From: a virus
DNA: 64,000 nucleotides
Reading direction: 5' to 3' (one strand)
Virus record (IMG/VR): IMGVR_UViG_3300017763_003471
Coordinates: 1 to 64,000 of that record
Positions within the stretch are counted from its first letter, which is position 1. Each line of letters begins with the position of its first letter. A model generated the notes under the pieces. That model made no database searches. It was not told the origin of the DNA and saw nothing but the letters and a program-made list of their open reading frames with translations. Shown in pieces: positions 3,804 to 25,235 of this stretch. Both the position numbers and the translations under genes were made by a program.

Positions 3804-3815
3804 AATCCCTTCTTG

Positions 3816-3823: not shown

Positions 3824-3839
3824 CATTATGTACAGATAT

Positions 3840-3847: not shown

Positions 3848-3858
3848 AGGAGTTTCCT

Positions 3859-5188: not shown

Positions 5189-5301
5189 TTAGAAAGATAA
5201 TTGATATAATTCTTTATCCTTGGACAGAGTTTAAAAGACGTAGAGAAATGAAAAAGAGATTAGAGGAATTAAAGAAGCGTGATCCGTTCATTTATAAATA
5301 G
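5185..5301 (+). CDS. Small basic protein, 38 aa
   Basis: The ATG overlaps the stop of the SGNH gene (ATGA) behind AAAGGA. The protein MIRKIIDIIL...KKRDPFIYK has a short hydrophobic start and a Lys/Arg/Glu-rich helix. I recall small ORFs ending RDPFIY in other marine T4-like phages, which supports it as real. Function unknown. Confidence 0.6.
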   Translation: MIRKIIDIILYPWTEFKRRREMKKRLEELKKRDPFIYK

Positions 5302-5317
5302 GCGTGAACCCGTAATA

Positions 5318-6844
5318 ATGGGTATTAGTGGTGCCATAAATCATGACGCCGCAGTAGCTATTATTGATGAAGGCGAGATTAAATTCGCCGGGCATGCGGA
5401 ACGTTATTCTAAAAAGAAAAATGACCCTGATTTAAATGAGGCTCTATTAACAGATGCTATTCATTATGGGGGTAAGCCTGATTTAATTGCTTGGTATGAG
5501 AAACCAATGCTTAAAAAATTACGTCAATTACGTGCAGGTCAATGGAAATTAAGTTTAGATACGTCTGAATTACCGAGTCAATACTTAGAAAAGTTTCCAC
5601 AATTAAAACATATTCCAATTAAATATCAAAAGCATCATTATACTCATGCCGCTTCAGGTTATTTTACTTCACCGTATGATGAGGCTACGATAGTTGTTAT
5701 CGATTCAATAGGAGAATTCGAAACACTTACGTTCTGGAAGGGACATGGAATGAGATTAGAGAAAGTATATTCTCAGAGTTATCCAAGTTCAATAGGTTTA
5801 TTTTATTCAGCAATGACTCAACGTCTTGGATTAAAGCCTAACGAAGATGAATATATTTTAATGGGTATGGCCGCTTATGGTGATCCACACAGATTATATG
5901 AAGGTAAAGAATTAATTCAACATATATATGATGAGTTCGGTATTATTCATGAGTCTGGATTAGTTGGATATACTATGCAAAAGAATACCCTAATTAAATT
6001 TACACAGAATTTGCATCGTGGTTGTCGATGGTTCTTACCTGAATTAAAAGAGGAACAAGACTTATTCGACTTAGCCGCCGCAACGCAACATGTGTATGAA
6101 ATGATACTATCCGAAATATTAATTAAATCTAAAGCAATGTGTCACTCAGAGAATTTAGTTCTGATGGGTGGTTGTGCTTTAAATTGTAGTGCGAATAGTA
6201 TGATAAAAGATTATTTCAAGTCAGTATGGATTATGCCTAATCCTGGCGATGCTGGTAGTTGTATCGGTGTTGCTCAGAAATATTCACGTGAAAGAATTCA
6301 ATGGAAAAGCCCATATCTTGGACATGACATACCTGGAGAGTATCCTGTCGAAGATGTACTTAATGCTTTACTTCAAGGGTCTATTTGTGGTATAGCATCA
6401 GGTCGTGCAGAGTTCGGTCCACGTGCATTAGGTAATCGTAGTTTATGTGCAGATCCTAGAGGGAATGACATAAAAGATACTGTAAATGAAATAAAACGCA
6501 GACAACAGTTCAGACCGTTTGCGCCTATGATATTAGAAGAATACGTGAATGATTATTTCGATGGTCCTTCAGGTCCTTATATGCAGTTCATAGCTAAGTG
6601 TAAGCACCCAAAAGATTTTCCAGCAATTATTCATAAAGATGGAACTTCACGTGTCCAAACAGTTAACAAAGAACAACATGCAGGTCTACATGAATTATTA
6701 ACACGTTTTTATGATAAAACAGGTTGTCCTATGTTACTGAATACTTCACTGAATATCAAAGGTATGCCAATAGTCAATAACGAGCAAGATGCTAGGGATT
6801 TTGCGAATTATTACAAAACTTTGGTCTTTACAAGCAAGACGTAA
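5318..6844 (+). CDS. NodU/CmcH-family O-carbamoyltransferase
   Basis: 508 residues from the ATG at 5318, whose start MGISGAINHDAAVA matches the family's usual N-terminus (GINxxHDxSA). A GTG at 5279 in the same frame is less likely, because it lies inside the small gene at 5185-5301. Visible signatures: HHYTHAASGYFTSP (metal-binding His residues of the Kae1-like YrdC/NodU fold), VLMGGCALNCSAN, GRAEFGPRALGNRS and LNTSLNIKGMP. Family members use carbamoyl phosphate and ATP to carbamoylate hydroxyls on sugars, Nod factors and antibiotics. In the context of glycosyltransferase-like and radical SAM genes it probably decorates the same product. Confident family call; substrate unknown. Confidence 0.9.
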   Translation: MGISGAINHDAAVAIIDEGEIKFAGHAERYSKKKNDPDLNEALLTDAIHYGGKPDLIAWYEKPMLKKLRQLRAGQWKLSLDTSELPSQYLEKFPQLKHIPIKYQKHHYTHAASGYFTSPYDEATIVVIDSIGEFETLTFWKGHGMRLEKVYSQSYPSSIGLFYSAMTQRLGLKPNEDEYILMGMAAYGDPHRLYEGKELIQHIYDEFGIIHESGLVGYTMQKNTLIKFTQNLHRGCRWFLPELKEEQDLFDLAAATQHVYEMILSEILIKSKAMCHSENLVLMGGCALNCSANSMIKDYFKSVWIMPNPGDAGSCIGVAQKYSRERIQWKSPYLGHDIPGEYPVEDVLNALLQGSICGIASGRAEFGPRALGNRSLCADPRGNDIKDTVNEIKRRQQFRPFAPMILEEYVNDYFDGPSGPYMQFIAKCKHPKDFPAIIHKDGTSRVQTVNKEQHAGLHELLTRFYDKTGCPMLLNTSLNIKGMPIVNNEQDARDFANYYKTLVFTSKT

Positions 6845-9659: not shown

Positions 9660-10596
9660 TATAAAAGAAAGAAGAAAGGCTAGGTTTGACAAAAGTAAAA
9701 TTACAAAGTCAGATGACCTTTACGACAGTAAAGATCCGTCAGTAGATATAAGTTCAGAAGAATTACCTGATATTCCTAAAAATGAAACTATTGAAATAAC
9801 AGAAAAGCCTAACAGAAAGACTAAAAGAAGGCGTGACTTACTTGTAAAAGAATACGACTATCAGAAAATGGCAGTTGAATATTCTTTAGAGAACGTAAGT
9901 CAGCAATTACATAATTATCGATGTGCAATGGAATTCTTAGCACACGTTAATTTAACAGACAATGATACTATTGTCGATAGATTTAAAGAAATAATATATA
10001 ACTATCCTAACGTAGATATGAGTACATTTGCAAATAAAGATAATGCAAAACTGTATAGTTGGATTGTACAACAAATGATTTACGTATATGGTCAGAAATA
10101 TATTGGTGTTGTTTATCTATTAGGAGGGGGTATGGGATTATTAGGTTCTATGCTCTTAGATACTAAGATGCGATTTGAGAATATTCGTTCATTCGATATT
10201 AATGGTACGTGTCAGTTCTTAGCAGATGAATTTCACAAAAAAGAATTATTGCAGGATTGGAAATTTAAATCAAATACGCAAGATTTGTTTGAGGTTAATT
10301 ATATAGAAAATGAGTTTCAAACACGTTTAGCTGATGGAAAATTATCTACTCCATACAATGAGATCCCAGGTACTATCATTAATTGCAGTGTAAGTTATCT
10401 AACCAATTTCCAGGATTGGTATGATATGATACCAGACACTAAAAGAGTGGTATTAGTTGGCGAAACAGGAGATGTCCCTAGACCTTTTCCTAGTTCACAA
10501 AATTTCAACTTAAGATTTCCAATGTCATACGAACAGTACAGTGGAGTGATTACAGTTGGATCGAAACAATTCTTTTTGAAAATGGGGCTTAAGTAA
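9652..10596 (+). CDS. Class I methyltransferase-like protein
   Basis: 314 residues. The N-terminus (1-75) is charged and Lys/Arg-rich. The core has a Rossmann-like glycine loop VVYLLGGGMGLLGSML (about 157-172), an acidic strand end IRSFDIN (about 178-184) and the later strand GTIINCSVSYLTNF, an order typical of SAM-dependent methyltransferases. The catalytic proline motif of N-methyltransferases is absent, so another substrate or a non-catalytic role is possible. It overlaps both neighbours, the next of which shares its C-terminal architecture. A paralogous pair with 10596-12008 is likely. Confidence 0.5.
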   Translation: MSNIKERRKARFDKSKITKSDDLYDSKDPSVDISSEELPDIPKNETIEITEKPNRKTKRRRDLLVKEYDYQKMAVEYSLENVSQQLHNYRCAMEFLAHVNLTDNDTIVDRFKEIIYNYPNVDMSTFANKDNAKLYSWIVQQMIYVYGQKYIGVVYLLGGGMGLLGSMLLDTKMRFENIRSFDINGTCQFLADEFHKKELLQDWKFKSNTQDLFEVNYIENEFQTRLADGKLSTPYNEIPGTIINCSVSYLTNFQDWYDMIPDTKRVVLVGETGDVPRPFPSSQNFNLRFPMSYEQYSGVITVGSKQFFLKMGLK

Positions 10597-12008
10597 TGAA
10601 GCCGTATGAAATTGCAGATAGATTAAATCTCCTTTATGGGAATAGTAGACCTATGCTATCTGAATTAGAAAGAGTTGTTAATACTGAGGAACTCAGTAGT
10701 ATATTTACTTTATGCTCTTACTTCTTAGGTAAGAAACATAGAGCGAATATGAATGCTCTAATGAATCTCGTTTATGAGAGACAAGTTTGTGATAACACAT
10801 TCGTCCTGTTTAAAGTGTTAGACAAAATATCTCAAAACGATGATTCATTGGACGCATTAAGAAACTTTATGGCATGTGAAACTATTGATAGAAAATCAAT
10901 GTATCTTGTGTTTAGAGTTTTGAATGGAATGTATCCAGACAATGCAGATACATTAGATGATTTAAAAAATACTATTTGTGCGGAAGGTGGTGAGTTTGAT
11001 AGAGACTTAGTATTTTTATTATTTAATGTACTAGAAAAAATAATAGATGATGAAGAAGGATTAGGTGCATTAAAAAATGTTTGTGGTAATCATAATTTTA
11101 TTAAATCACAAACAGAATTATTATTCAGAGTAATAATGAATATTGAATACCCTGATGATGAAATATTAAGTGCATTAAAAAATATTATTGCAGTTGATAC
11201 TGATCCAGACTTATATTTATTATTTAAAGTTATTCAGGGTTTTGATGAATCTAATGAAGATATTGCTAACGTAAAAAGTGCAACAATATTTAAAACAAAA
11301 GTATTTGAATTAGTTCACACTCTTACTGAAGGCAAGTATAGTATTCCTATGAATATGAAGAAAATGACTAAAAGATTTGAAGGTCAAGCGTTGACTGATG
11401 CATTTAGTAGAGGACAGTTACAGTCTAAACTGTGGTTAATTGACATTGTGAATAATTATGATATAAACTTAGGTAAGACTATTTACACTTGTGCAGGTTG
11501 GTATGGAGTTTTACCAGCATTATTGTTTGAAAGATGCAAGATTGAAGGTAATATCTATAGCTTTGATAGTGATCCTACTACAGATAATCCAGCAGATACA
11601 CTCAATAAAGAGTATATAATTGACAATATGAAGTTCAAATCATTCGTAAAAGATATAGCAGAATTGAAGTTTTCTGAGGAAACACTGCCAATAAAACATT
11701 ATAAATACAGTGATGCAGTTAAGTTCGAAGTCATGGATACAACACATACTATTGGTCATCCAACATGTGTAATCAATACAAGTTGCGAACATATTGCAGA
11801 GTTTGACAAATGGTGGAATGCTATTCCAAAGGGTACACTAGTGATATTACAGAATAATGATTTTATTGAACATGAAGATGAAACAGTTGTTAATACTAAA
11901 ACAGATGTTGATAGTTGGGCTAAAGAGTTGAAACTATCTAAAAATATATTCACTGGGACACTAGAATTGGAGCATTACAACCGGTATATGATTATCGGAG
12001 AGAAATAA
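10596..12008 (+). CDS. Helical-repeat protein fused to a methyltransferase-like domain
   Basis: 470 residues. Residues about 36-235 carry five clear and one degenerate tandem repeat with a 33-37 residue period: LFKVLDKI, VFRVLNGM, LFNVLEKI, LFRVIMNI and LFKVIQGF recur, each followed by D/E-rich turns and LxALKN. This is the layout of TPR/PPR/HEAT-like helical hairpins. The C-terminal half (about 280-470) repeats the Rossmann-like plan of the preceding gene: TIYTCAGWYGVLPALL, IYSFDSDPT, TCVINTSCEHI. A repeat scaffold that presents a substrate to the methyltransferase-like domain is a reasonable inference. The start ATG lies immediately after the preceding stop. Confidence 0.55.
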   Translation: MKPYEIADRLNLLYGNSRPMLSELERVVNTEELSSIFTLCSYFLGKKHRANMNALMNLVYERQVCDNTFVLFKVLDKISQNDDSLDALRNFMACETIDRKSMYLVFRVLNGMYPDNADTLDDLKNTICAEGGEFDRDLVFLLFNVLEKIIDDEEGLGALKNVCGNHNFIKSQTELLFRVIMNIEYPDDEILSALKNIIAVDTDPDLYLLFKVIQGFDESNEDIANVKSATIFKTKVFELVHTLTEGKYSIPMNMKKMTKRFEGQALTDAFSRGQLQSKLWLIDIVNNYDINLGKTIYTCAGWYGVLPALLFERCKIEGNIYSFDSDPTTDNPADTLNKEYIIDNMKFKSFVKDIAELKFSEETLPIKHYKYSDAVKFEVMDTTHTIGHPTCVINTSCEHIAEFDKWWNAIPKGTLVILQNNDFIEHEDETVVNTKTDVDSWAKELKLSKNIFTGTLELEHYNRYMIIGEK

Positions 12009-13304
12009 GTGAAAAATGCTCAAGTCAGAGGTTATATAGACAAAGAGAAAATAAAAGCAAGAGAGGCTTTTAAAGAATTGTTGAAGGAACACCAAAATGG
12101 CAAAGCCGATACAAGTAATTTTTGTGCGGCACCATTTGCACATATGTATGTTCACAGTAATGAAGGGCAAAGAGTTTGTTGTATGTCAACCGAGTACAAT
12201 GTAGTAGAAGATGATACTGAATTAGATTTAAAGAAACGTTGGAGTAATGATTATTACAAAGAGTTCAGAAAGAAATTCTTACGTAATGAACAACCAGATG
12301 TTTGTGTTAAATGTTATAACTTAGAAAGTGCAGGTGGTAGAAGTGATAGAATAAATTTCAATACTATGTACAGTACAAAGATTGAACCAAATATAGAAAC
12401 AGGTAATCAATGGAATGCACCAATAGATATTGACGTTAGACCAGGCAACTTATGTAATTTAAAATGTAGAATGTGCGGACCTATATCAAGTTCACAAATA
12501 GAAAAAGAAGTACAAGATAATCAAGAATTATTACGTCCTATTTTAGGTCATGGAAAGATAATAAGGTCAGATGTTTTAGCAAATGAGCATAATATAGAAT
12601 TTTTATTAGAAGCGGCAGACAAAGGAAATAGAATTAAGTTCTTAGGCGGAGAACCCACTATTATGCCAGAAGTTGATAAGTTCTTAGATATATTAATTGA
12701 TAAGAAATATCTTAATGTTCCATTACATTTTACTACAAACTGTACAAATAATAATAGAAGATTTGTTGATAAATTAGCAAAGTTTAATAACGTATCATTC
12801 AATTATAGTATTGATGGAACTGAATCAGTAGTTGAATATATCAGAACACCAGTTAAATTTAAAACGATAGACAAAACAATTAGATTATATCATGAAATAG
12901 CACAAAAACATCCACATGCGGTAAGTGAAATAAGTTTTACATGGCAAGCATATAATTTATTTAATTTGCTTGATACGATTAAGTGGGCACAAAGTATAGG
13001 TATAACTATGAGACCAGAGATTCTTAGAACACCAGAGTGGTCTTCAATAAGAAATATCCCAGTAGATATTCGTACTCCATACATTTATTCGTTAATAAAA
13101 GAGATTGAACCATGGGAGAACAGATATTCATATAGAGTTATTCCTGCATTATATCAAATGTTGAATGACAAGGAACAATATAATCCTATACATCTAGCAA
13201 GAGCAACAAAGAGATTTGATAAAGTAAGAAATCAACACATAAAAGATTACATACCAGAAATATATGAAATCATAAAAAAGGACTATGATGATTTACAAAT
13301 ATGA
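12009..13304 (+). CDS. Radical SAM protein with N-terminal twitch/SPASM-like cluster domain (subfamily A)
   Basis: 431 residues from a GTG directly after the preceding TAA, behind GGAG. The radical SAM triad CNLKCRMC is at Cys149, 153 and 156, with the following KFLGGEPT strand binding SAM. Unusually, the auxiliary cluster cysteines come first: Cys39, the Cys57-Cys58 pair and Cys99/Cys102 (CVKC). This order fits the N-terminal-twitch radical SAM group rather than C-terminal SPASM. Such enzymes need a second [4Fe-4S] cluster for substrate binding or electron transfer. Paralogs occur at 15454, 20595 and 61400. Substrate unknown; peptide or carbohydrate are both plausible. Confidence 0.85.
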   Translation: MKNAQVRGYIDKEKIKAREAFKELLKEHQNGKADTSNFCAAPFAHMYVHSNEGQRVCCMSTEYNVVEDDTELDLKKRWSNDYYKEFRKKFLRNEQPDVCVKCYNLESAGGRSDRINFNTMYSTKIEPNIETGNQWNAPIDIDVRPGNLCNLKCRMCGPISSSQIEKEVQDNQELLRPILGHGKIIRSDVLANEHNIEFLLEAADKGNRIKFLGGEPTIMPEVDKFLDILIDKKYLNVPLHFTTNCTNNNRRFVDKLAKFNNVSFNYSIDGTESVVEYIRTPVKFKTIDKTIRLYHEIAQKHPHAVSEISFTWQAYNLFNLLDTIKWAQSIGITMRPEILRTPEWSSIRNIPVDIRTPYIYSLIKEIEPWENRYSYRVIPALYQMLNDKEQYNPIHLARATKRFDKVRNQHIKDYIPEIYEIIKKDYDDLQI

Positions 13305-14376
13305 TGAAGTAAGAGCAATACACTTGGAAATAACTGAAAAGTGTCAAGCCGCTTGTCCTATGTGCGATAGAAACGTACATGGTGGTAAAGATAATCCTAA
13401 TCTTGGTATGCATGAATTATCATTACAAGATATTCAGGAGATGATGCCTCCAGAGTTTGTAAAGCAGTTAGAAAGAATTTATATGTGTGGTAACTTTGGT
13501 GATCCTATTGTTGCTAAAGATACATTAGAAGTCATGCAATACTTTCGTTCACAGAAACGGGAGTTAACGCTGGGAATGAATACCAACGCTGGTGCGAAGA
13601 AACCAGAGTGGTGGAGAGAATTAGCAAAGACATTAGGTAACTGGAGTTATGTTAAGTTTGGATTTGATGGACTGAAAGATACAAATCATTTATATAGACA
13701 GAATGTTAATTGGGATATAGCGTGGGAAAATGCGGTAGCGTTTATTGAGGCAGGTGGTAAAGCACATTGGGATTACTTAATCTTTGAACACAATGAACAT
13801 CAAGTAGAAGAGGCTAGAGCATTGGCAGAGAAAACAGGCTTTAAAAAGTTCATACCTAAAAAGACAGGTCGTTTCTTTTCTACAATGAAACAAGTTAAGA
13901 AAGATGAACATCAAGCAAAGAATAGAAAAGGTGCTGAAACACAATTACTACAACAACCAAAGGAAGTTAAGTATCAGAATAAAGCACTAGATAAGATTAA
14001 AGAAATTACAAACAAGCATGGTTCATTAGAAAAGTATTTTGATAATGTACAAATCAGTTGTAAAGTTGCGGCTGAAAAGAATATGTATATTAGTGCAGAA
14101 GGATTAATTCTTCCATGTTGTTGGGTAGCTGGTAATATGTATAAGTGGTGGCAGAAGCCAGGAGAAAATCAAGTATGGGAACTTCTACAACAGTCAGGTG
14201 GTAAAGATGAATTTGATGCTAAGAGACATGGAATAGAATATGTATTAAACAATGAATACTTTTCTCATAGATTAGTAGATAGTTGGAAACAACCAAATGT
14301 ACATGCAGGGAAACCAATGGTATGTTCACAGAAATGTGGTAAAGAGTTCGATGCATTTGCGGAGCAGTTCAAGTAA
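13285..14376 (+). CDS. Radical SAM/SPASM protein (subfamily B)
   Basis: 363 residues; overlaps the previous gene by 20 nt. CQAACPMC at Cys20, 24 and 27 opens the radical SAM domain (LHLE-type strand just before), then MCGNFGDP in place of the usual GGEP. The C-terminal auxiliary cluster region has CK (about 255), PCCW and CSQKCGKEF, a SPASM-like arrangement. It is about 40% alike by eye to the protein at 19370, sharing DGLKDTNHLYR and HNEHQVEEARALA. SPASM enzymes modify peptides or sugars; the substrate here is unknown. Confidence 0.85.
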   Translation: MMIYKYDEVRAIHLEITEKCQAACPMCDRNVHGGKDNPNLGMHELSLQDIQEMMPPEFVKQLERIYMCGNFGDPIVAKDTLEVMQYFRSQKRELTLGMNTNAGAKKPEWWRELAKTLGNWSYVKFGFDGLKDTNHLYRQNVNWDIAWENAVAFIEAGGKAHWDYLIFEHNEHQVEEARALAEKTGFKKFIPKKTGRFFSTMKQVKKDEHQAKNRKGAETQLLQQPKEVKYQNKALDKIKEITNKHGSLEKYFDNVQISCKVAAEKNMYISAEGLILPCCWVAGNMYKWWQKPGENQVWELLQQSGGKDEFDAKRHGIEYVLNNEYFSHRLVDSWKQPNVHAGKPMVCSQKCGKEFDAFAEQFK

Positions 14377-15446
14377 TGGCTGAATTAAAACTAAGATATA
14401 AAGCCAATGATTCGTATCATAGTCAATATGATAGATACGAACCTATAGTTGGTAATGATTATATCGTAGTTGATTGGATGATGGGTAATACCTGTAATTA
14501 TGCCTGTACTTATTGTGATGAGGAGTTTCATGATGGTTCAACTCCTTGGCCAGAAGTTGATGTAGTATTAGAGTTTACAAAAAGATTAACAGACCATTAC
14601 AGAAAGTATGCACCAGGTAAAAGAATACTATGGAACTTATTAGGTGGCGAACCAACAGTATGGCCTAAGTTCTCAGAGGTATTTCATAAAATGAAAGAAT
14701 ATGACTCAAGTTCCAGCGTGAGAATATTGACCAATGGTTCAAGAACCCTACGCTGGTGGGAGAAGAATGCAAATATATTTGATGAAGTTATTATAAGTTA
14801 TCATCCACAAAGTGCAGATTATAAACATGTAACAGATGTATCAAACATACTTATGGATAAGGGAACAATATGTTCTATTCAGTCAGCTATATATCCTCCG
14901 TTACTTGATAGATGTATTGAAGCGGCAAAGTATTACCATGAGAATTCTAAATGTATAACGCATAATTCAAAAGCATTACAAGAAACATTAGGCAGTAACA
15001 ATACGTTTGTATATCCAGAAGGTGCGTTTGAAATATTGCGTAGATATGATGGACAACCAAAGCATTGGCAAGATATAGAACAAAGTGATTCAAAAGAAGC
15101 AGTACATCTTGTAGCAAAAAGAAAGTTCCTTAGAAAAAGTATGGGTAAACAAATGCGTTATCTTAATACTAAGACAGGCAAATCAGTAGTATTCAATAAC
15201 CCAAATCATATTATGGAACAAGGACACAATACGTGGAAAGGCTGGAAGTGTATGATAGGAATTGAAGCATTAGTTGTTCAATTAAATGGAACTATAACAA
15301 GTGGTAACAGTTGTTTTACTAAACTAGTTCATGGACATATAAACAAACCAGATGAAATAGACTTTCCTACAGATGGATTAATATGCCCACAAACTTGGTG
15401 CAGTTGTGTATCGGACACAGAAGTAACGAAAATTAAGGTGAAATAA
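14376..15446 (+). CDS. Radical SAM protein (subfamily C)
   Basis: 356 residues. CNYACTYC at Cys40, 44 and 47, then NLLGGEPTVWP for SAM binding. The C-terminus carries further cysteines (GWKCMIG, SGNSCF, ICPQTWCSC) that could hold an auxiliary cluster. It overlaps the preceding gene by one base (TAATG) and resembles the protein at 22024. The pairing of one B and one C member is repeated at 19370/22024. Confidence 0.83.
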   Translation: MAELKLRYKANDSYHSQYDRYEPIVGNDYIVVDWMMGNTCNYACTYCDEEFHDGSTPWPEVDVVLEFTKRLTDHYRKYAPGKRILWNLLGGEPTVWPKFSEVFHKMKEYDSSSSVRILTNGSRTLRWWEKNANIFDEVIISYHPQSADYKHVTDVSNILMDKGTICSIQSAIYPPLLDRCIEAAKYYHENSKCITHNSKALQETLGSNNTFVYPEGAFEILRRYDGQPKHWQDIEQSDSKEAVHLVAKRKFLRKSMGKQMRYLNTKTGKSVVFNNPNHIMEQGHNTWKGWKCMIGIEALVVQLNGTITSGNSCFTKLVHGHINKPDEIDFPTDGLICPQTWCSCVSDTEVTKIKVK

Positions 15447-15453
15447 ATACAGT

Positions 15454-17001
15454 ATGTCCAAGAAAAACAATCCAGAATTAGAGAAAAACTTAAACGAATT
15501 TGTTCGAAGAACAGGTGCACCTACAAAAACATTTTGTTTGTTACCGTGGGTTCATTTAAGTACAAGACCTAATGGACATATGCGTGTATGTTGTACGGCA
15601 AATGCAAGTTCAGTTGGTCCTACAAATGATAAAGAACACGGCGGAGAAGTAGGTGTTCTAAAAAATGCTGATGGTAAACCTTCAAACTTAAATCATAGTG
15701 ACTTGATGTCAAGTTGGAATAATGATTATATGAAGAATGTTAGAAAGCAAATGCTTAATAACGAAATGCCTCCTAGTTGTATGAAATGTTACAAAGAGGA
15801 AGATGCAGGTCATATGTCAAAAAGATATTGGGAAACAGAGTACTGGTCTCGTAGAGTTGATATGAAAGAGATACTTGATGAGACAACAGAAGACGGTGCA
15901 ATCCCTCCAAAGATTAGATACTTAGACTTGCGTTTAGGTTCTAAATGTAATCTTAAATGTATTATGTGTTCTCCTCATGACAGTTCAATGTGGGTTAAAG
16001 ATTGGATTAAATTACATCCACAGATTGAAAACGAATCATTAAAAGAAACTATGCAATGGGGTAACAAAGGTCAGATAGATGGTGCAACATATAACTGGCA
16101 TAAAAAGAATGATGCATTTTGGGATCAGTTGTATGACCAAATCCCACATATGAAACAGTTATACTTTGCTGGTGGGGAAGCTACAATCATTGAAGAACAT
16201 TATACTTTACTTGAAGAAGTTGTAGAAAGAGGATATGCTCCCGGTATTGAATTAAGATATAACTCAAATGGTTTAGAAATGCCACAACGTTTATTTGACT
16301 TGTGGAAACAATTCAAGCGTGTACGTTTCCATTATAGCGTAGACAGTATAGGTCTTATGAATGATTACATACGTTTTCCAAGTGAATGGGAACACACAGT
16401 AAGACAATTTCATTTATTAGATAACACAGGACCTAACGTAGAAGTTACAGTTGCTTGTGCAGTTCAGGCTCTTAACATATATTATCTTCCTGACTTTGTT
16501 AAGTGGAAGATTGAACAGAATTTTAAAAAGATTAACTTATGGCCACTAGGTGCAGGTATGATTAACTATCACTTTGTTTATCACCCACCTCATTTAAATG
16601 TTAAAGTTTTACCTAAGTGGTTCAAAGAAATGACAGTTGCAAAGTATGACAAGTTTATTGAGTGGCTTGATGCAAACTGGGAAAAATGTGATGGTGTCAC
16701 AAACTATGATGAATGGAAAAATGCAAACTACGGTATTAAAAGACTAAGAGGTATGCTTTCATTTATGAATAGTGGTGACTGGTCACGACAACGTATGCCA
16801 GAGTTTATTGAGTATATCAATAAGATGGACGGTATAAGAGATACAAATTTTAGAGATGTGTTTCCTGAGATGGCTCCTCTTTTAGATTGGACACCAGAAG
16901 ATGGTGAAGATTGGGACGGAGAGTTCGATGATAGATTACTAAAAGAGTTAGAAGATTCAGGGTTTCACGTTAATCAACAGGAGTTAGACATTGACAATTA
17001 A
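15454..17001 (+). CDS. Radical SAM protein with N-terminal twitch domain (subfamily A)
   Basis: 515 residues. N-terminal cluster cysteines: Cys28 (FCLLPW), Cys46-Cys47 (RVCCTA) and Cys109/112 (CMKC). The radical SAM triad CNLKCIMC is at Cys165, 169 and 172, followed by LYFAGGEATI. It is closest to the protein at 20595: both have the LPW...STR.NG...RVCC block and a long C-terminal region with LPDFVKWKIEQ/FTDFLKWKIEQ. Coupled to the hydroxylase that follows by an 11-nt overlap. Substrate unknown. Confidence 0.85.
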   Translation: MSKKNNPELEKNLNEFVRRTGAPTKTFCLLPWVHLSTRPNGHMRVCCTANASSVGPTNDKEHGGEVGVLKNADGKPSNLNHSDLMSSWNNDYMKNVRKQMLNNEMPPSCMKCYKEEDAGHMSKRYWETEYWSRRVDMKEILDETTEDGAIPPKIRYLDLRLGSKCNLKCIMCSPHDSSMWVKDWIKLHPQIENESLKETMQWGNKGQIDGATYNWHKKNDAFWDQLYDQIPHMKQLYFAGGEATIIEEHYTLLEEVVERGYAPGIELRYNSNGLEMPQRLFDLWKQFKRVRFHYSVDSIGLMNDYIRFPSEWEHTVRQFHLLDNTGPNVEVTVACAVQALNIYYLPDFVKWKIEQNFKKINLWPLGAGMINYHFVYHPPHLNVKVLPKWFKEMTVAKYDKFIEWLDANWEKCDGVTNYDEWKNANYGIKRLRGMLSFMNSGDWSRQRMPEFIEYINKMDGIRDTNFRDVFPEMAPLLDWTPEDGEDWDGEFDDRLLKELEDSGFHVNQQELDIDN

Positions 17002-17797
17002 TTACCCAAACATAATCGAAGAAGTATTTAAAGATAGAAATAGTTATAGTTTTGATACTGTACCTAGTGCATTTATAGATGCAATATTCAATGAGCCTAA
17101 GTTTCCAGAGTCAGCAAGATTCAGAAAAGCTAAATGGATTTCACACGAGTCAGGCATCCCTTGGTTAGAGTTAGATGTTCCTGAGTTCGATTGGAAAGCA
17201 TGTTGGGGCGAAGCAATGGCAGTGTATAATGAAGCTATTCAACATAGAAAAAATGATTACGATGAAAGTAACCCAGATGATTATGGACACAGAGGCTGGC
17301 GTAGTTTAACATTACATGGTTTAGGTAAACATGTATCTCAGCATTGGGATAGTAAAGATGTTAAAGCCATGGGTTTTGATTTTAAAAGCGAAGAAGAAGT
17401 GAGAGAAGCATATCATTGGACAGAGATTGCAGACAAATGTCCTAAGACAGTAGAAATGATTAAGTCTATTCCAGGTTATATGTCATTCGATAGAGTTCGT
17501 TATATGTACTTAGAACCAGGCGGATACATTACTCCTCATAATGATTATGAACATAATAAGTTAGGACCATTGAATATATCATTAAACAATCCCGAGCATT
17601 GTTATTTTAAAATGATTGACGATAATGCATATGTTCCGTGGAAACCTGGTCGTATGATTAAGATGAATGTGGGACATCAACATGCAGTGATGAATGATAC
17701 AGATGAAGTAAGAGTTCATATGATTGTACACGGACAGTATGGTGGCAAAAGTTATGAAGATATTATGATAGACAGTTGGGAAAAAGTGAATGACTAA
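16991..17797 (+). CDS. Aspartyl/asparaginyl beta-hydroxylase-like dioxygenase, TTG start
   Basis: 268 residues. The TTG at 16991 follows CAGGAG at good spacing and overlaps the previous stop; no in-frame ATG lies near. The Fe(II)/2-oxoglutarate site reads EPGGYITPHNDYE (H-x-D, about 181-183) and VGHQHAVMND (distal His about 227), with Arg in DEVRVHMIVHG for 2-oxoglutarate. The preceding LNISLNNPEHC strand is typical of the family. It sits between radical SAM genes, so it likely hydroxylates the same intermediate. Confidence 0.8.
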   Translation: MTINYPNIIEEVFKDRNSYSFDTVPSAFIDAIFNEPKFPESARFRKAKWISHESGIPWLELDVPEFDWKACWGEAMAVYNEAIQHRKNDYDESNPDDYGHRGWRSLTLHGLGKHVSQHWDSKDVKAMGFDFKSEEEVREAYHWTEIADKCPKTVEMIKSIPGYMSFDRVRYMYLEPGGYITPHNDYEHNKLGPLNISLNNPEHCYFKMIDDNAYVPWKPGRMIKMNVGHQHAVMNDTDEVRVHMIVHGQYGGKSYEDIMIDSWEKVND

Positions 17798-19391
17798 ACA
17801 CACAGACCATCAACGTTCAACCAATTTTAGCAAGAGAGTTAGATGTGCAGTATTAGATACATCTAAAACTATTGGTGATGACGAAATATCACAATACACT
17901 AGACAGATGACTTATAACTTTCTTAGAAACAATTACAGTCATTATAGACATAAGATTTACGAAGAGGATACAGTTGATAAGATACTAGCAGACTTAGCCA
18001 ATGATCCAGAAGAAAGTGATATTGTTCTTTTAGTAGTTCAAGCATACGGTAACATATTATATGATACGTGGCAACCACTGGAACATGGTTATAGTTTATT
18101 CAGAGAGTATTGCAATCATGATTGGTTAGCAGATGCTAAAGCAAATAAGTTTTTATTAATGGGACATATACTTGATGACCAACACAAAGATAGATGGTTT
18201 AGATTACATGAGCAATGTTTCGTTATCAATTATCCTATGTGGAAAGCAATGGGAAGACCTGCGTTTGGAGACTTTGGGGTTAAGCAACAGGAAGTTAGAC
18301 AGGCTGTGAGAAGTACAGAAAACTTTCATGACGGACATACGCCTAAGTATTTGTCACCGGGAACAGAACAAGAAACAATTAATCGTACAGGCTTTGGTTG
18401 GAATCTAATCAATGAGAGTTTAAAAGCAGGACTATCAGTATTAAACTTTGATGAGCAGGCTCGTAAGACTAAAACATATTTGTATCCAGAGATTAAAGAA
18501 GAACAAGAAGAATTCAAAAAGTTCTTTAGAGAAGATTGTGCTAACTTTAAAGCACACGAAAGTAATCTAGGTCAAACTAAAAAAGACTTCTTACAATATC
18601 AAGCCTATACAGTTCAACGCTCACCAGATGCCATATGGGTTATGAATACAGAGTCAGTAAATGATGTTATATTTGTTCCTAGAAAGTTTCCACTAAAGAA
18701 TATTTACAGTGTAGCCGCAGGATTTAAAACATTTGCATTCTTAAATAATTGGAACCCTAATACTGATGTAGAGAATGTAGGTCTACATTACTTTGATATA
18801 TCAGAGAACAGTTTAGAAGCAAGAAAATGGTTACACACTGAATGGGATCCGAGAGACTTTAATCAGTACTTAGATTATTTACACGATGAATGGTATAAGA
18901 CTGATAAAGCCCTGATATCAATTTATGAAGACTTTGATTTCATGTCACCTAATTGGGATAGTGAAAGAGAAAAAGCAAAAGAGGCATATCAAAAAAGCAT
19001 TCTAAGAATCTTTGATACAATGGAAGACTTCTATGAAATGCATGAGAAAGTTAAACATAATCCTAATATAACATACGGAGTAGCAGATTTATGTAGAGAC
19101 TATCAGCCTCTTGTAGATAGAATTCAACCACATGAAGAAGGATTTGATAGTGTGGTATGGAGTAGTAATTATATTACAACAAGATATACAACGTGGTTAC
19201 TATCATATGAAGAACGTAGAGATATCTACAAAGAAGTAGTAAAGAAAATGTGCGATAAAAACAAACATCTTAGATTGCATAGTGCAGATTGGGATGGTTC
19301 ACCAACTAGAGGAATGAAATTAGAAGAAATTAATCACGCATACGGATATCCGGAAGAGTTATTTTTAAAATGGCGAAGCAAGAGAAACTAA
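17790..19391 (+). CDS. Large hypothetical protein of the biosynthetic array (533 aa)
   Basis: No family recognised. It is Tyr/Trp/Asp-rich and mostly helical; the middle part (PDAIWVMNTESVND, then IYSVAAGFKTFAFL) has alternating strand-helix character reminiscent of the C-terminal domains at 9652 and 10596. There is no cysteine cluster, signal peptide or TM helix. It overlaps the hydroxylase before it by 8 nt and the radical SAM gene after it by 22 nt, so it is probably a dedicated component of the pathway. Confidence 0.6.
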   Translation: MTKHTDHQRSTNFSKRVRCAVLDTSKTIGDDEISQYTRQMTYNFLRNNYSHYRHKIYEEDTVDKILADLANDPEESDIVLLVVQAYGNILYDTWQPLEHGYSLFREYCNHDWLADAKANKFLLMGHILDDQHKDRWFRLHEQCFVINYPMWKAMGRPAFGDFGVKQQEVRQAVRSTENFHDGHTPKYLSPGTEQETINRTGFGWNLINESLKAGLSVLNFDEQARKTKTYLYPEIKEEQEEFKKFFREDCANFKAHESNLGQTKKDFLQYQAYTVQRSPDAIWVMNTESVNDVIFVPRKFPLKNIYSVAAGFKTFAFLNNWNPNTDVENVGLHYFDISENSLEARKWLHTEWDPRDFNQYLDYLHDEWYKTDKALISIYEDFDFMSPNWDSEREKAKEAYQKSILRIFDTMEDFYEMHEKVKHNPNITYGVADLCRDYQPLVDRIQPHEEGFDSVVWSSNYITTRYTTWLLSYEERRDIYKEVVKKMCDKNKHLRLHSADWDGSPTRGMKLEEINHAYGYPEELFLKWRSKRN

Positions 19392-20608
19392 GATATATAA
19401 AATTTGATGTAGGTGTGTTACACTTAGAGTTAACCTCACGATGTAATGCATTATGTCCTATGTGTGGAAGAACTACTGGTATGGATGGTGCAGTAGAAGG
19501 TGGTGAAGTAGTATTAAAGAAACGTGATGATGTACATTTACTTGATACAGATCCACAGTTGTTAACAAACATGATAGAAGAAATGAAACCGTTCTTACCT
19601 AATCATGTTTTTATCAATGGTAACTTTGGTGATCCAATTATGTATCCTCATCTATTAGAGATTATAAGAATGTACAAAGACGCTGGAGTTCCACAAGTAA
19701 CGCTGAGTACGAATGGTTCAGTACATAAACCAGAGTGGTGGATAGAGTTAGCAAGTATAATGAGAAAGCCTGATAAAGTTATTTTCGCAGTAGATGGGTT
19801 AGAGGATACTAATCATTTATATAGAGTGAATACAAACTTTAACAAGATAATGGAAAATGCACAGGCATTCATAGATGCTGGTGGACTAGCAAGATGGGAC
19901 TTTATTGCATTTGCACACAACGAACATCAAATTGAAGAAGCCAAAGCATTAGCAGATAAGATGGGCTTTGTTAAATTTAGATATAAGAAATCTAATCGCT
20001 ATGTAATACCTACACATTATGCAGGCGACAAAGAAGAAAAAGTAGAAACAAAAACAGAATTGAAATTTGTTGCGAAACAACACGTAGCCATGGAAAAGAA
20101 AAAAGCAAAAACTACAGAAGAAAAAGCAAAAGCAATGGCTACTATATTGAAGGCACCAGAGAAAACAGATAATGCAAATACAACAAACAACGTTGAAAAA
20201 GTGATTAAGAAACATAAGACATTTGATAATTATGTAAAAGCTACAGACATTGCTTGTCAGACTATGAGAGATAAAAGTATATTTGTAGATTACGAAGGTA
20301 AAGTTTGGCCTTGTTGTTGGCAAGGACATTACTACAGTAAAGTAGGACATGACATGGCAACACCTAGACGTATCGAAGACAATGCTATTATGAATAGAAA
20401 ATACGGAGAAGGATTTAATGACTTGTCAAAGCATAGCATTCATGATATACTAAACTCACCATACTTTTCAAATGATTTAGTAGATAGTTGGGAGATAAAC
20501 TCTCCTGACAGATTATGGATATGTGGCAAGACATGTGGAAAAGAATTAGATTTCAGAGGAAACGGAGAAAAGAACTTTGAGGATACGGAGATGAATGAAT
20601 ATGCCTGA
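19370..20608 (+). CDS. Radical SAM/SPASM protein (subfamily B)
   Basis: 412 residues. LELTSRCNALCPMC carries Cys25, 29 and 32; NGNFGDPIMYP replaces GGEP as in the protein at 13285. Between about 220 and 285 there is a Lys/Thr/Glu-rich insertion absent from its paralog. The C-terminal SPASM-like part contains IACQT, WPCCWQ and WICGKTCGKE. It overlaps its neighbours at both ends. Paralogy with 13285-14376 is clear. Confidence 0.85.
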   Translation: MAKQEKLRYIKFDVGVLHLELTSRCNALCPMCGRTTGMDGAVEGGEVVLKKRDDVHLLDTDPQLLTNMIEEMKPFLPNHVFINGNFGDPIMYPHLLEIIRMYKDAGVPQVTLSTNGSVHKPEWWIELASIMRKPDKVIFAVDGLEDTNHLYRVNTNFNKIMENAQAFIDAGGLARWDFIAFAHNEHQIEEAKALADKMGFVKFRYKKSNRYVIPTHYAGDKEEKVETKTELKFVAKQHVAMEKKKAKTTEEKAKAMATILKAPEKTDNANTTNNVEKVIKKHKTFDNYVKATDIACQTMRDKSIFVDYEGKVWPCCWQGHYYSKVGHDMATPRRIEDNAIMNRKYGEGFNDLSKHSIHDILNSPYFSNDLVDSWEINSPDRLWICGKTCGKELDFRGNGEKNFEDTEMNEYA

Positions 20609-22022
20609 TACATTTTGCATATTACCTTGGATTAATATCTCAACACGTGCAAATGGAGATTTGCGTGTATGTTGTCATGCCAATCAAGGACCTACTCGAG
20701 GTATCTATAAGAAAGAAGATGGGACAAACTATAATCTTAAACAAGATAAGATTACTGATGCGATTAACTCTCCACTAGCAAAAGAAATTCGTAAAACAAT
20801 GTTAGATAACAAATGGCATGCAGAGTGTATTAGATGTTTACGTGAAGAAAAATCAGGTATGAAGTCCAGACGTATTAACGATGGCGAAAGATTTGCTCAA
20901 CATATAACATTTGAACAAGCGAAAGAACATACCTCAGAAGATGGTACAATAGATTTAAATCATATAAAACAAACTTACTATGATATTCGTTTAGGTAATT
21001 TCTGTAACTTAAAATGTCGTATGTGTTCTCCGATGGATAGTAGTTCTTGGTACGATGATTATGTTAAGATGTGGGGTACAAATAAGTTTAAAGATACACA
21101 TGGTATCGTAGAAATGTATAAGAATAACAAAGGTAGATTTGTATCAAACGATTACGATTGGGTTAAGAAGGATCACTTCTGGGAGAATTTAAAAGAAAAC
21201 GTAAAAGGAATGCAACATGTTTATCTAGTAGGTGGTGAACCTCTTATCATTGAAGAACATTATGATTTCTTAAAGTATTGTGTCGAAGTAGATAAAGCAA
21301 AAGAAATGACACTTGAATACAATACTAACTTAACTAACATTCAACCTAGAGCATTAGAGTTATGGAAACAATTTAAGCAAGTTCAGTTTGGTATATCAAT
21401 GGACGGAATAGGTGAGACATTAGAATATGTACGTAACCCACTTAAGTCAAAACTAATGGAAAAGAATTTAGTAAGACTAGATGAAGTTGGTTTAGAGAAA
21501 ATGAATTTCAGAGCCTGGATAGCATTTACTATTGGTGCCCTGAATGCTTTTCATTTTACAGATTTCTTAAAGTGGAAGATAGAACAAGACTTTGCAGTTA
21601 TATCTCCTATGCTAAAGAATAATCCTAAGCCATTTATTAATGCACACCCAATACATAAACCACATGAATTAGCAACAAGATTTCTACCATTAGAAGTAAA
21701 AGACCAAGTACGTGATAAATGGGAAGAATTTAGAACAGAGTTCAAAACAGAAATAGTAAATAATATTGACTATCATTCACTCGCTAAGAAAAATCCTATG
21801 GCAATGGGAATGATTAAGCCTGCAAACAAAGAGTGGGCTATAATGAAAATGGACCAATTACTTGATAATAATATTAAGTTTATGTATGATGAAGATTGGT
21901 TCACAGAAGAAAATAACAAGAAGTTCTGGCAATACAATGAGAAACTTGATGGAATCAGAAACGAAAACATGGAAAAACAATTACCAGAGTTGTATAACGC
22001 AATGAAGAAATATAAGGTATAA
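20595..22022 (+). CDS. Radical SAM protein with N-terminal twitch domain (subfamily A)
   Basis: 475 residues if the first ATG is used (a second ATG lies two codons later). N-terminal cysteines: Cys8 (FCILPW), Cys26-Cys27 (RVCCHA) and CIRC. The radical SAM triad CNLKCRMC follows FCN-type spacing in RLGNFCNLKC, and VYLVGGEPLI binds SAM. Closely related to the protein at 15454. Immediate neighbours are a B and a C member. Confidence 0.85.
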   Translation: MNMPDTFCILPWINISTRANGDLRVCCHANQGPTRGIYKKEDGTNYNLKQDKITDAINSPLAKEIRKTMLDNKWHAECIRCLREEKSGMKSRRINDGERFAQHITFEQAKEHTSEDGTIDLNHIKQTYYDIRLGNFCNLKCRMCSPMDSSSWYDDYVKMWGTNKFKDTHGIVEMYKNNKGRFVSNDYDWVKKDHFWENLKENVKGMQHVYLVGGEPLIIEEHYDFLKYCVEVDKAKEMTLEYNTNLTNIQPRALELWKQFKQVQFGISMDGIGETLEYVRNPLKSKLMEKNLVRLDEVGLEKMNFRAWIAFTIGALNAFHFTDFLKWKIEQDFAVISPMLKNNPKPFINAHPIHKPHELATRFLPLEVKDQVRDKWEEFRTEFKTEIVNNIDYHSLAKKNPMAMGMIKPANKEWAIMKMDQLLDNNIKFMYDEDWFTEENNKKFWQYNEKLDGIRNENMEKQLPELYNAMKKYKV

Positions 22023-22023
22023 G

Positions 22024-23187
22024 ATGGAAATAGATAAGCAATCACTTAAATGGTCACAGTATGATTTTACTAAGATACCTTTTGATGATATTGTCAAAGT
22101 AGGACAACGTACTTTATTGTATAGAGATTTATTCTCAGTGTCTTGGTTACTAGGTCGTTTCTGTAATTATAAATGTAGTTACTGTTGGCCTTATGCTAGG
22201 TCAGATAGAAAAGACCATAGACCTACAGAATTGTGTTTAGCAACTATTGATGAGATAAAGAGGCAAGCACGTGATAATGGGTTTAATAGTTTTCATTTTA
22301 GTTTATCTGGTGGTGAGCCTACTTTCCATCCAGGATACTTGGACATCTTACAACATTTGGCTGATGATGTCGATAATTGTAATTACACTAGCGTTCATAT
22401 GACTAGTAATATCTCTCGTAAAAAAGATTGGTTTATAAAGTATGCTGAGATAGTAGGTAAAATGCATAGAGCAAGTATTACAGCCAGTTATCATAGAGAG
22501 TTTGCAAAGCCAGAAGAATTTGCAGACAAACTTTTATTATGTATGGAATATGATATACAAGTAACTATTAATATGGTTCTTGTTCCTGAAAGATTTGATG
22601 TTGATTGGGATAATGCATTATACTTTCATAACAGAGGTATTAATGTTACGTTAAAGCCTCAATCTGATCCTACTGCTTCTTTTGTTGTTAAAGGTTATAC
22701 AGATAAGCAATTAGAGATTATGCAGAATGGTATGCCACAACGTGCATACACAGATGATTTACAAAAGACAACAGGTAAAAAGATTATAAGACCTAAGCCA
22801 GCAAAGACTATGTGGAACCAAGACATAATGAATGGTGATGATAAAGGTGTCCCACCAATCATGCAAGTAGAGTTTGAAGATAGCAAAGGCAAGAAGTGGT
22901 ACATAGACCAAGCAGAAAGATTTAATGCTTTCAACTTTAATAAGTTCAAAGGTTGGGATTGTACTAGTGGCTTCAAAGGTGTTATCATAAGAGAACCAGA
23001 CGGAAGTATTAAACGTTCTTACAGTTGTGCAGATGAACCACTAGGATATATCGAAAGTGGATTTAAACTATTTGATAAGCCTAAGCCGTGTATTAGTGAA
23101 AGTTGTGTTTCAAGTGCAGATAGTAAGATACCAAAAAGGGCACCAGGTCACCAAGTAAGAATATATCCAAATGAAAAGATTAGATAA
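22024..23187 (+). CDS. Radical SAM protein (subfamily C)
   Basis: 387 residues, starting 1 nt after the previous stop. CNYKCSYC at Cys47, 51 and 54 is followed by FSLSGGEPTFHP. C-terminal cysteines in GWDCTSG, RSYSCADEP and KPCISESC suggest an auxiliary cluster. It shares layout with the protein at 14376, including W(L/M)xG before the triad. Overlaps the aminotransferase by 17 nt. Confidence 0.83.
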   Translation: MEIDKQSLKWSQYDFTKIPFDDIVKVGQRTLLYRDLFSVSWLLGRFCNYKCSYCWPYARSDRKDHRPTELCLATIDEIKRQARDNGFNSFHFSLSGGEPTFHPGYLDILQHLADDVDNCNYTSVHMTSNISRKKDWFIKYAEIVGKMHRASITASYHREFAKPEEFADKLLLCMEYDIQVTINMVLVPERFDVDWDNALYFHNRGINVTLKPQSDPTASFVVKGYTDKQLEIMQNGMPQRAYTDDLQKTTGKKIIRPKPAKTMWNQDIMNGDDKGVPPIMQVEFEDSKGKKWYIDQAERFNAFNFNKFKGWDCTSGFKGVIIREPDGSIKRSYSCADEPLGYIESGFKLFDKPKPCISESCVSSADSKIPKRAPGHQVRIYPNEKIR

Positions 23188-24091
23188 GATAGATTTATTT
23201 ACAGAACATTGTGAGAATAGAGAACAGGCTATTCGTAAAGCAAAAGCTATTGTAGATGAAGATGTTATTGAGGTAGGAAGTTCAGTTAATATCTTTAATG
23301 ACTCTTATGACTTTTCAATATTACATGACCAAATGGCATTCTTAGAACAATATGATGAGTGGATACATTCTAGTAAAAAGTTTAAGATAATGGGACTTGA
23401 TAAGTTTACTAATAGATTAGTTACTAACGGTATTACTGATGCATTTACCGACTTCTATGAGACTGCAAAATACTTACATGTACTCAGAGGCGAGTACACG
23501 TATCACAGGGACCTAGGGATACCTGTATTAGATACATATAAAGACATACCAATCAATTCATCTTTGATTATAAGTTATCCTTTTAGTGCTACTGGGAACG
23601 TACATTTTGACTGGGATAGAATAATAGAAACATGTAATAAAAGAAATGTTGCTATATTCATAGATTGTTGTTTGTTTGGTGTAGCAGAAGTACCTAGATT
23701 AGATTTAAATCATAAATGCATAACCCATGTAGCATTTAGTTTCAGTAAGACATTCGCTACTGGAGGATTGCGTACAGGTATGTTATATAAAAGAAATGTT
23801 GAACGTACCGCATTGCAATTACAAAATCAACACTTTTATACACAGATGGCTGGAATGAAAATACATTCAGAATTAATGAAAGAGTTCAGTCCTGATTATA
23901 TGTGTAATAAATATAGACAGAAACAAATCGAGTTAGCAAAGACATTAGAAATAGAACCAAGTGATAGTGTTATCTTTGGCATTAGTACAAAAGATAAAGA
24001 CAATCATTTTGAAAGAGACGGATATATTAATAGATTATGTTTGTCTTATGCTTTGCAAGAACACGACAAACATTACGAGGACTTTGAATGA
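23171..24091 (+). CDS. Compact PLP-dependent aminotransferase-like protein
   Basis: 306 residues, shorter than the usual 380-420 of fold-type I enzymes. Key elements are present: TNGITDAF (cofactor phosphate region, about 85-92), SYPFSATG (about 135-142), Asp165 in FIDCC for the pyridine nitrogen, the Schiff-base Lys193 in SFSKTFA and Arg201 in GGLRTG. The missing length is mostly at the C-terminal small domain. In the array it could install or remove an amino group on the product. Trimmed size may mean narrowed specificity rather than loss of activity. Confidence 0.7.
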   Translation: MKRLDKIDLFTEHCENREQAIRKAKAIVDEDVIEVGSSVNIFNDSYDFSILHDQMAFLEQYDEWIHSSKKFKIMGLDKFTNRLVTNGITDAFTDFYETAKYLHVLRGEYTYHRDLGIPVLDTYKDIPINSSLIISYPFSATGNVHFDWDRIIETCNKRNVAIFIDCCLFGVAEVPRLDLNHKCITHVAFSFSKTFATGGLRTGMLYKRNVERTALQLQNQHFYTQMAGMKIHSELMKEFSPDYMCNKYRQKQIELAKTLEIEPSDSVIFGISTKDKDNHFERDGYINRLCLSYALQEHDKHYEDFE

Positions 24092-24777
24092 GTGTAGAAA
24101 AATTAGACATAGAATTCGATTACAAGAGACTTGTAGGAGAGTTCAAAGGACTTGACATTGAACAGAAACTTATTGATAATGAATATCAGATAGCAGTTCA
24201 ATGTAGAGAAGGTATTGAGGGTGAAAAGCAATTAACTGATAGTTGTGGCAGTTTGCTATACGATTGGGATAATTACTTTCCAGAACAAGATTACGAAAAC
24301 TCAGGACCTAAAGTACGTGATGTAGTACTAGAAGAAGATGTATTTAATCTAGTTTGTGATATATGGAAAGGTACATATATAGGCGAAGTAGTAAATGCAT
24401 TATACGAAGAATATGGAGTCCTGAGAGGTAGATTTATGATGTTAGGAATGAAAAAATGTTTAACATATCATAAAGACAACACACCAAGATTGCATATTCC
24501 TTTAGTAACTGATGATAAATGTTTTATGGTTATCGATGATAAAGTATGCAGAATACCATATGGTGGAGTATATAAAGTTGATACTACAAAAAGACACACC
24601 GCCATAAACGCAAGTAAGATATTAAGAACACATTTAGTATTTTGTTTACCTAAGCCAATAATAGATAAATCTAAACCTTTACCGTGGGAAATACCTACTG
24701 AGTTGGGTGGACCTAAAGGTGCAGAGCCTACAAGATTTGGTACATGGGAAAACAAAGGAAGGGAAATAGATTTTTAA
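24088..24777 (+). CDS. Asp/Asn beta-hydroxylase-like dioxygenase
   Basis: 229 residues, ATGA overlap with the aminotransferase. The metal site is visible in LTYHKDNTPRLHIPL (H-x-D, about 131-133), the distal His in TKRHTAINAS (about 171) and the 2-oxoglutarate Arg in ILRTHLVF. This is the third such enzyme in the array. It belongs to the same broad fold as those at 3859 and 16991 but is too divergent to be a recent duplicate. Confidence 0.75.
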   Translation: MSVEKLDIEFDYKRLVGEFKGLDIEQKLIDNEYQIAVQCREGIEGEKQLTDSCGSLLYDWDNYFPEQDYENSGPKVRDVVLEEDVFNLVCDIWKGTYIGEVVNALYEEYGVLRGRFMMLGMKKCLTYHKDNTPRLHIPLVTDDKCFMVIDDKVCRIPYGGVYKVDTTKRHTAINASKILRTHLVFCLPKPIIDKSKPLPWEIPTELGGPKGAEPTRFGTWENKGREIDF

Positions 24778-25235
24778 TGACTGATTTAATAACAGGTTCA
24801 GACCATAGAGGTTATGAATTAAAATGTGCAATAGAGAAACATCTTGTTCCTATTGACAAAGATATAACAAGCGATATAGTAACATATTTAGATTGTGGTT
24901 GCTATGATAGTAAAGCAAAAGTAGATTATCCAGATGTAGTAAAGAGTTTGGCTTTAGAAATGAAGTCAGTTTTTGATAGAGGGATTTTAGTATGTGGTTC
25001 TGGGTTTGGTGTAGCAATAGCGGCCAATCGATATCCACATATTCGTGCAGTAACAGTTCGCACTCCTAAAGAAGCAGAAATGGCAAGACTACATAATGAT
25101 GCAAACGTATTATGTTTAGGTGCAGATTTTACTTCTACAAAAGATGCATTAAAAATTGTTGATAAGTTTTTAACTACCAAATTTGAAGGTGGTAGACATA
25201 AAGATAGAGTTGCTAAACTGACATCGATGCTTTAA
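24777..25235 (+). CDS. rpiB: Ribose-5-phosphate isomerase B (RpiB/LacAB family)
   Basis: 152 residues from the ATG that overlaps the previous stop (TAATG). GSDHRGYELK at the N-terminus, the catalytic-Cys loop VCGSGFGVAIAANR and the HNDANVL segment (normally HNDANVLALG) are all family signatures. The enzyme interconverts ribose-5-phosphate and ribulose-5-phosphate; relatives isomerise 6-carbon sugar phosphates. As last gene of the array it may feed sugar to the pathway or to nucleotide synthesis. Its 3' end overlaps thyA, on the opposite strand, by 23 nt. Confidence 0.88.
   Translation: MTDLITGSDHRGYELKCAIEKHLVPIDKDITSDIVTYLDCGCYDSKAKVDYPDVVKSLALEMKSVFDRGILVCGSGFGVAIAANRYPHIRAVTVRTPKEAEMARLHNDANVLCLGADFTSTKDALKIVDKFLTTKFEGGRHKDRVAKLTSML

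Follow-up and report, generated by a model that had tools for sequence, protein, structure and literature searches.

A radical SAM-rich gene island of a jumbo T4-superfamily phage with a conserved core and variable accessory genes

Results

Gene content of the island

The stretch of DNA analyzed in this work (the window, 64,000 nt) corresponds to positions 1-64,000 of the 138,591-bp IMG/VR record IMGVR_UViG_3300017763_003471 (labelled G000), a fragment of the larger genome of a marine jumbo T4-superfamily phage. Its plus strand carries a run of genes from 3604 to 25235, seven of which encode radical S-adenosylmethionine (rSAM) proteins; sequence comparison separates these seven into a conserved core trio and four accessory paralogues. 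Open reading frames (ORFs) were called mechanically, so that the start sites are approximate. The original prediction had placed seven rSAM genes of three architectures here, and both statements held: an ORF, the CX3CX2C motif and a match to PF04055 have been found for each of the seven, and the N-terminal twitch (A), C-terminal SPASM-like (B) and CNYxCxYC (C) architectures have all been recognized.

The run opens with the gene for a cupin-like protein (3604..4458; Cupin_2, E 4e-4, below the cut-off), which is followed by those for a DUF6071 protein (4469..5188; 38.4 bits, above the cut-off) and a carbamoyltransferase with NodU/TobZ-type domains (5279..6844; Carbam_trans_N, E 1e-42, Carbam_trans_C, E 1e-52). 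From 6882 to 25235 the intergenic gaps range from -34 to +7 nt. The genes of this tightly packed part lie in the order G, M1, M2, A1, B1, C1, A2, H1, U, B2, A3, C2. G (6882..9659, core) encodes a multidomain glycosyltransferase-like protein (446 bits) with seven G-domain matches, the last of them full-length. M1 (9652..10596, 314 bits, core) and M2 (10596..12008, 336 bits) belong to one methyltransferase-like family and match each other with E 4e-9. The rSAM genes are A1 (12009..13304, accessory), B1 (13285..14376, core), C1 (14376..15446, accessory, CNYACTYC type), A2 (15454..17001, core), B2 (19370..20608, accessory), A3 (20595..22022, accessory) and C2 (22024..23187), the conserved last gene of the core, whose product has a predicted structure with a predicted local distance difference test (pLDDT) score of 89.7. 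Between A2 and B2 lie two accessory genes, H1 (16991..17797) for a 2-oxoglutarate-dependent (2OG) hydroxylase (Asp_Arg_Hydrox, 61 bits) and U (17790..19391). Downstream of C2 the run is completed by genes for a pyridoxal-phosphate-dependent aminotransferase of the class I/II fold (23171..24091; 25.2 bits, cut-off 19.7), a second 2OG hydroxylase, H2 (24088..24777; Asp_Arg_Hydrox with a C-terminal DUF1674), and an RpiB/LacAB sugar-phosphate isomerase (24744..25235; 154 bits).

Two A-B-C rounds had been proposed for the interval 12009-23187, interleaved with tailoring genes. The actual order is A-B-C-A and then B-A-C, hence the window does not contain two identical sets. Both hydroxylases and the aminotransferase were confirmed as tailoring genes; the carbamoyltransferase and the methyltransferase-like genes are present on the same strand but lie upstream of that interval.

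Motifs and predicted structures of the enzymes

Besides the CX3CX2C motif, all seven rSAM proteins possess auxiliary-cluster cysteines. Their matches to PF04055 exceed the cut-off in six cases; A2 scores 25.6 against 29.5 bits, and its identity as an rSAM protein is nevertheless beyond doubt because it reaches 437 bits with NF033640 (N_Twi_rSAM), for which A1 and A3 score 294.8 and 353.1 bits (curated cut-off 170 bits). The SPASM model PF13186 (cut-off 21.5 bits) matches the A proteins N-terminally (A2 21.7, A3 23.4 and A1 19.7 bits) and B2 C-terminally (22.8 bits), and B1 gave no match to it. In the B proteins GNFGDP replaces GGEP and the cysteines are found at the C-terminus, those of B1 being SPASM-like. 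The C proteins share four further invariant C-terminal cysteines (C313, C335, C356 and C361 in C2 numbering). A small cysteine-rich protein (family 51), encoded beside a C-type rSAM gene in the viral locus L141 and in related loci, resembles a detached C-terminal auxiliary-cluster domain.

Assignment of the C proteins to viperin was rejected, since C1 and C2 score 46.6 and 39.7 bits with NF038283 against a cut-off of 180 and the likeness is confined to the core; viperin is the top Foldseek match of C2, but the template modelling (TM) score is only 0.36. Reading the chemistry from solved relatives was likewise abandoned, as the matches of A, B and C are scattered across many rSAM families and cover mostly the core domain.

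U is predicted to consist of a GT-A-like N-terminal and a class-I-methyltransferase-like C-terminal domain (AlphaFold2 model, pLDDT 81.7). The model weakly matches LH3 and NNMT in Foldseek, and comparison of U with M by hhalign gave a probability of 74; in the searches made U matched no family and no phage protein. A homolog of U is fused to H1 in the relative L054. As regards a lysyl-hydroxylase-like role, no collagen-like GXY repeats were found in the 138,591-bp record. Elsewhere on the record, the minus strand encodes a single protein in which a G domain at the N-terminus is combined with an M domain at the C-terminus (G000 124955-126568; L012:3955-5568), which suggests that G and M act together; no such fusion above the threshold was found in the other loci.

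Phylogeny of the rSAM proteins

The best BLAST pairs among the seven proteins fall within the architectures (A2/A3 34%, B1/B2 32% and C1/C2 21% identity), and an A-B-C block had been supposed to be duplicated. The trees comprised 294 sequences for A, 176 for B and 95 for C. In none of them did the paired proteins emerge as sisters: the smallest clade uniting A2 with A3 takes up 89 of the 294 leaves, the one uniting B1 with B2 120 of 176, and that uniting C1 with C2 is the entire tree. The duplication has not survived this analysis.

The trees instead place A2, B1 and C2 in clades of 38 leaves (support 0.857, and 0.976 one node in), 60 leaves (0.977) and 40 leaves (0.891) respectively, the last on a stem of 1.9 which separates it from C1. 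Each of these core clades mixes viral and bacterial members, and none includes A1, C1, B2 or A3. On the basis of the sequences, B1, A2 and C2 are assigned to a conserved core trio and the remaining four to accessory paralogues from other clades.

The core in viral contigs

The search of marine viral contigs proposed together with the original prediction yielded about 80 with a close relative of C2 (63-100% identity); relatives of the core occur in more than 80 viral contigs. The 80 viral loci were fetched by C-type queries alone. Among the 66 with enough upstream sequence all contain at least three rSAM genes, seven or eight being the commonest numbers; core A lies inside the flank in 43 and core A together with core B in 31. 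When 20 contigs with core A and/or core B beyond the flank were searched over their whole length, both were found in 18, with identities of at least 52% for core B and at least 58% for core A. The order B-A-C is kept in 35 of the 37 distinct viral loci holding all three genes. All 35 viral loci have an M gene, and 32 of the 35 a G gene, no more than 8 kb from core B. The unit is therefore a G-M-B-A-C core into which variable accessory rSAM genes and tailoring enzymes are inserted.

Comparison with the relative L014 revealed very uneven synonymous divergence within the one operon (C2 0.10, G 0.21, B2 1.13 and A1 1.69), which argues for gene-by-gene replacement. The ratio of nonsynonymous to synonymous divergence is 0.05-0.20 for every gene tested in this comparison, indicating that the genes have been kept functional. 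In other relatives an inserted QueC-like gene separates A2 from H1, or an SGNH-like gene precedes C2.

The core in Bdellovibrionota

When genomes of bacteria and archaea were scanned with the B family, the best matches were mainly metagenome-assembled genomes (MAGs) of Bdellovibrionota. The core genes are adjacent in the MAG contigs L180, L189, L192, L197, L199, L209, L228 and others, often with G or M close by. The proteins of these loci and of L190 fall into the core A, B and C clades that also hold the phage trio; the loci differ from that of the phage in lying on bacterial contigs, with the trio adjacent or nearly so and accessory rSAM genes absent or outside the trio. Many of the bacterial loci are MAG contigs, and L177/L208 and L187 resemble phage contigs binned with bacteria. 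For the trio of L190, on a contig of 493.6 kb, a chromosomal location is argued for by its neighbors, which encode an S49 peptidase, MoxR and a DUF58 protein. In L228 the trio is found near GT2 glycosyltransferase genes, one of them directly downstream, and a gene for a QueC-like protein.

The phage genome and its other gene sets

The DNA polymerase is nearest to those of phages with genomes of 360-490 kb, e.g. Phosso and Atu_ph07. The same operon, with 100% protein identity, is present on an IMG/VR contig of 342,607 bp (G008, the source of locus L013), which overlaps the record in the opposite orientation (G000 position p equals G008 position 118784-p). Since the two overlap, a genome length of 360 kb or more is probable.

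The 342,607-bp contig encodes 17 rSAM proteins. Two further N-twitch-like rSAM genes lie outside the operon on the minus strand (61400-62722 and G000 108097-109449), and five accessory-type rSAM genes form a second array (G008 137439-146886), about 18.7-28.1 kb upstream of the first base of the window. On one side this array is flanked by G and two GT8-like genes, on the other by genes for two epimerases, a DegT aminotransferase, a C-methyltransferase and a cytidylyltransferase/mannose-phosphate-isomerase-like protein. The ORFs next to it are similar to families 24 and 19; in relatives these families follow tail genes.

The remaining genes of the window to be mentioned are all on the minus strand. 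MetK, the S-adenosylmethionine (SAM) synthetase (45413..46561; three Pfam domains), and a flavodoxin (49433..49864) are a possible source of SAM and a possible electron donor for the rSAM enzymes. At 30234-36681 a second pathway-like set comprises, in a row, genes for a ketoacyl synthase, a fatty-acid desaturase, a GNAT-like protein, a desaturase-like, a tryptophan-halogenase-like protein and an AMP-ligase, the GNAT-like protein and the second desaturase having been assigned by eye. An SbmA/BacA-type peptide transporter is encoded at 40804-41778 (462 bits), and a QueE-like protein (phrog_2076, 179 bits) beside a GTP-cyclohydrolase-like one (by eye) at 46686-48261. A protein of 513 amino acids (52443-53984) looked by eye like TGT/DpdA but gave no family or PDB match. 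Beyond the window, the record has another plus-strand run at 73742-79893 (L009:9742-15893), with genes for an AMP-ligase fragment and a QueC-like protein; sulfotransferase-like and 2OG-hydroxylase-like genes were assigned there by eye. A PutA-like proline-catabolism protein (G000 133169-136015) and a sodium/solute symporter (71659-73146), both on the minus strand, have also been assigned by eye.

Discussion

A proposed glycan-type product of the island

G belongs to the core, GT2 genes lie close to the trio in bacteria, and sugar genes adjoin the phage arrays; on these grounds we favor, tentatively and with a little less than even confidence, the reading that the island synthesizes and decorates a glycan-type product. 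The sequences establish the genes and their families, the division into core and accessory members, its conservation and the exchange of genes. We infer the scaffold to be a glycan or glycoside, and likewise the substrate, chemistry, product and use outlined here. The core enzymes G, M, B1, A2 and C2 would make one common intermediate, with G joining sugars and the rSAM enzymes altering unreactive carbons. The accessory proteins A1, C1, B2, A3, H1 and U would then decorate the intermediate, giving each lineage its own variant. Sugars could be supplied or modified by the carbamoyltransferase and RpiB, and by the epimerases, DegT and C-methyltransferase encoded beside the second array, while phage MetK and flavodoxin would provide SAM and electrons. 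A host-surface or virion glycan affecting recognition or superinfection would be the likely use.

Several observations weigh against a glycan-type product. No rSAM protein of the island exceeds the cut-off of any characterized sugar-active family, G has only a weak Pfam match, and a flippase, a ligase or an initiating sugar transferase has not been recognized in the annotated parts. Of the 20 contigs that bear the array, only 3 were found to encode DegT and 9 to encode epimerases, mostly distant from the array, so that the link with deoxysugars is special to this lineage. Chemistry on amides or peptides would also suit the hydroxylases, QueC-like proteins and AMP ligases of related islands.

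The main rival explanation, which we consider unlikely though it deserves to be taken seriously, is that the rSAM enzymes modify a peptide or protein, which could be a ribosomal peptide encoded elsewhere in the genome or the tail-fibre proteins of the phage, with G/GT8 and the hydroxylases acting on the same protein. SPASM and twitch rSAM proteins are often peptide maturases, the nearest solved structures include SkfB, anSME, TigE and EpeE, and tail genes immediately precede the island in many related contigs, family 35 being a tail-collar protein. However, no rSAM protein of the island passes any cut-off for a maturase of ribosomally synthesized and post-translationally modified peptides (RiPPs), gaps of at most 7 nt leave no space in the operon for a precursor gene, and a PqqD or RiPP recognition element (RRE) domain was found in none of the 20 array-bearing contigs, an absence that makes peptide modification less likely.

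The size of the gene content would also suit a pathway for a diffusible small-molecule natural product, directed for example against competitors or at control of the host, and the phage does encode a ketoacyl synthase, a tryptophan-halogenase-like protein, an AMP ligase, a desaturase and an SbmA/BacA-type transporter. These genes are, however, located outside the island on the opposite strand, and no gene for release or self-protection has been recognized within it, which makes such a product improbable in our judgment. Hypermodification of phage DNA with a deazaguanine or another base could be proposed from the QueE-like protein of the phage, the recurrence of QueC-like proteins in related islands and the B-type relatives in Campylobacter phage CP220, but the QueE gene is distant from the island and on the opposite strand, and the core trio occurs in bacterial MAG contigs, where modification of phage DNA makes no sense; we regard this explanation as very improbable. 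From the best BLAST pairs the seven genes might be taken for the products of a single A-B-C block duplicated in this phage lineage. This view is refuted by the trees within the resolution of the alignments and retains hardly any credibility, given that the common-ancestor clades cover much or all of each family at differing depths and that the relatives of core members are not those of accessory members.

Relation to known phage modules

The original prediction had pointed to a cluster on the scale of a cellular natural-product pathway, with no characterized counterpart. The size was borne out and no such pathway has been found; the island is not unprecedented, since other rSAM-rich T4-like phages exist. 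With its tandem rSAM genes and tailoring enzymes varying between relatives it has the make-up of a T4-like rSAM-rich module. Campylobacter phages CP220 and CPt10 carry 11-12 rSAM genes and an exchangeable five-rSAM module (PMC2853527). They are likewise T4-like, and their central module is swapped between relatives and flanked by nucleotide-sugar-transferase-like genes; they differ in having an amidinotransferase and in the low scores of their rSAM proteins (at most 115 bits with family B and 63 with family C; 22-29% identity). In pelagimyophages rSAM cassettes have been described inside the host-recognition island (PMC7029224), between tail-fibre genes and VrlC; that cluster is defined as lying, with tail fibres, between VrlC and gp14. 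These phages and phage Mosig EXVC030M, which has a similar mixed cluster, share with the island rSAM, carbamoyltransferase, aminotransferase, Asp_Arg_Hydrox, desaturase and methyltransferase genes, whereas the rSAM proteins of Mosig score no more than 108 bits (B) and 47 bits (C) and the core trio is missing from it. TARA_ERS488813_N000010, a T4-like genome of 183 kb with 12 rSAM genes read as Fe-S metabolism (PMC5332604), is similar in combining numerous rSAM genes in a single T4-like genome of marine origin, a likeness drawn from its description and not from its sequence.

C2 and M1 had no match in 50,697 phage records, and core A and core B had only matches of 22-25% identity there. A nucleotide search of isolate phages for relatives returned only a thymidylate-synthase fragment. 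No published description of the core has been found in the open-access literature, which does not prove its absence.

Conclusions

It is possible, though we hold it with less than even confidence and well short of a conclusion, that the island represents a combinatorial phage-borne system, in which the fixed G-M-B-A-C core, common to uncultivated aquatic phages and the predatory Bdellovibrionota, would make an undescribed class of molecule and the exchangeable rSAM and tailoring genes would vary the product lineage by lineage, in a manner resembling the diversification of a surface glycan by O-antigen loci. Modules rich in rSAM genes have been noted in T4-like phages since 2010 and their function is not agreed. 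The division into core and accessory genes, together with the adjacent trio of Bdellovibrionota, turns the seven-gene tangle of an unculturable phage into a testable system of three to five genes. If the proposal is true, large aquatic phages would carry and shuffle complex biosynthesis.

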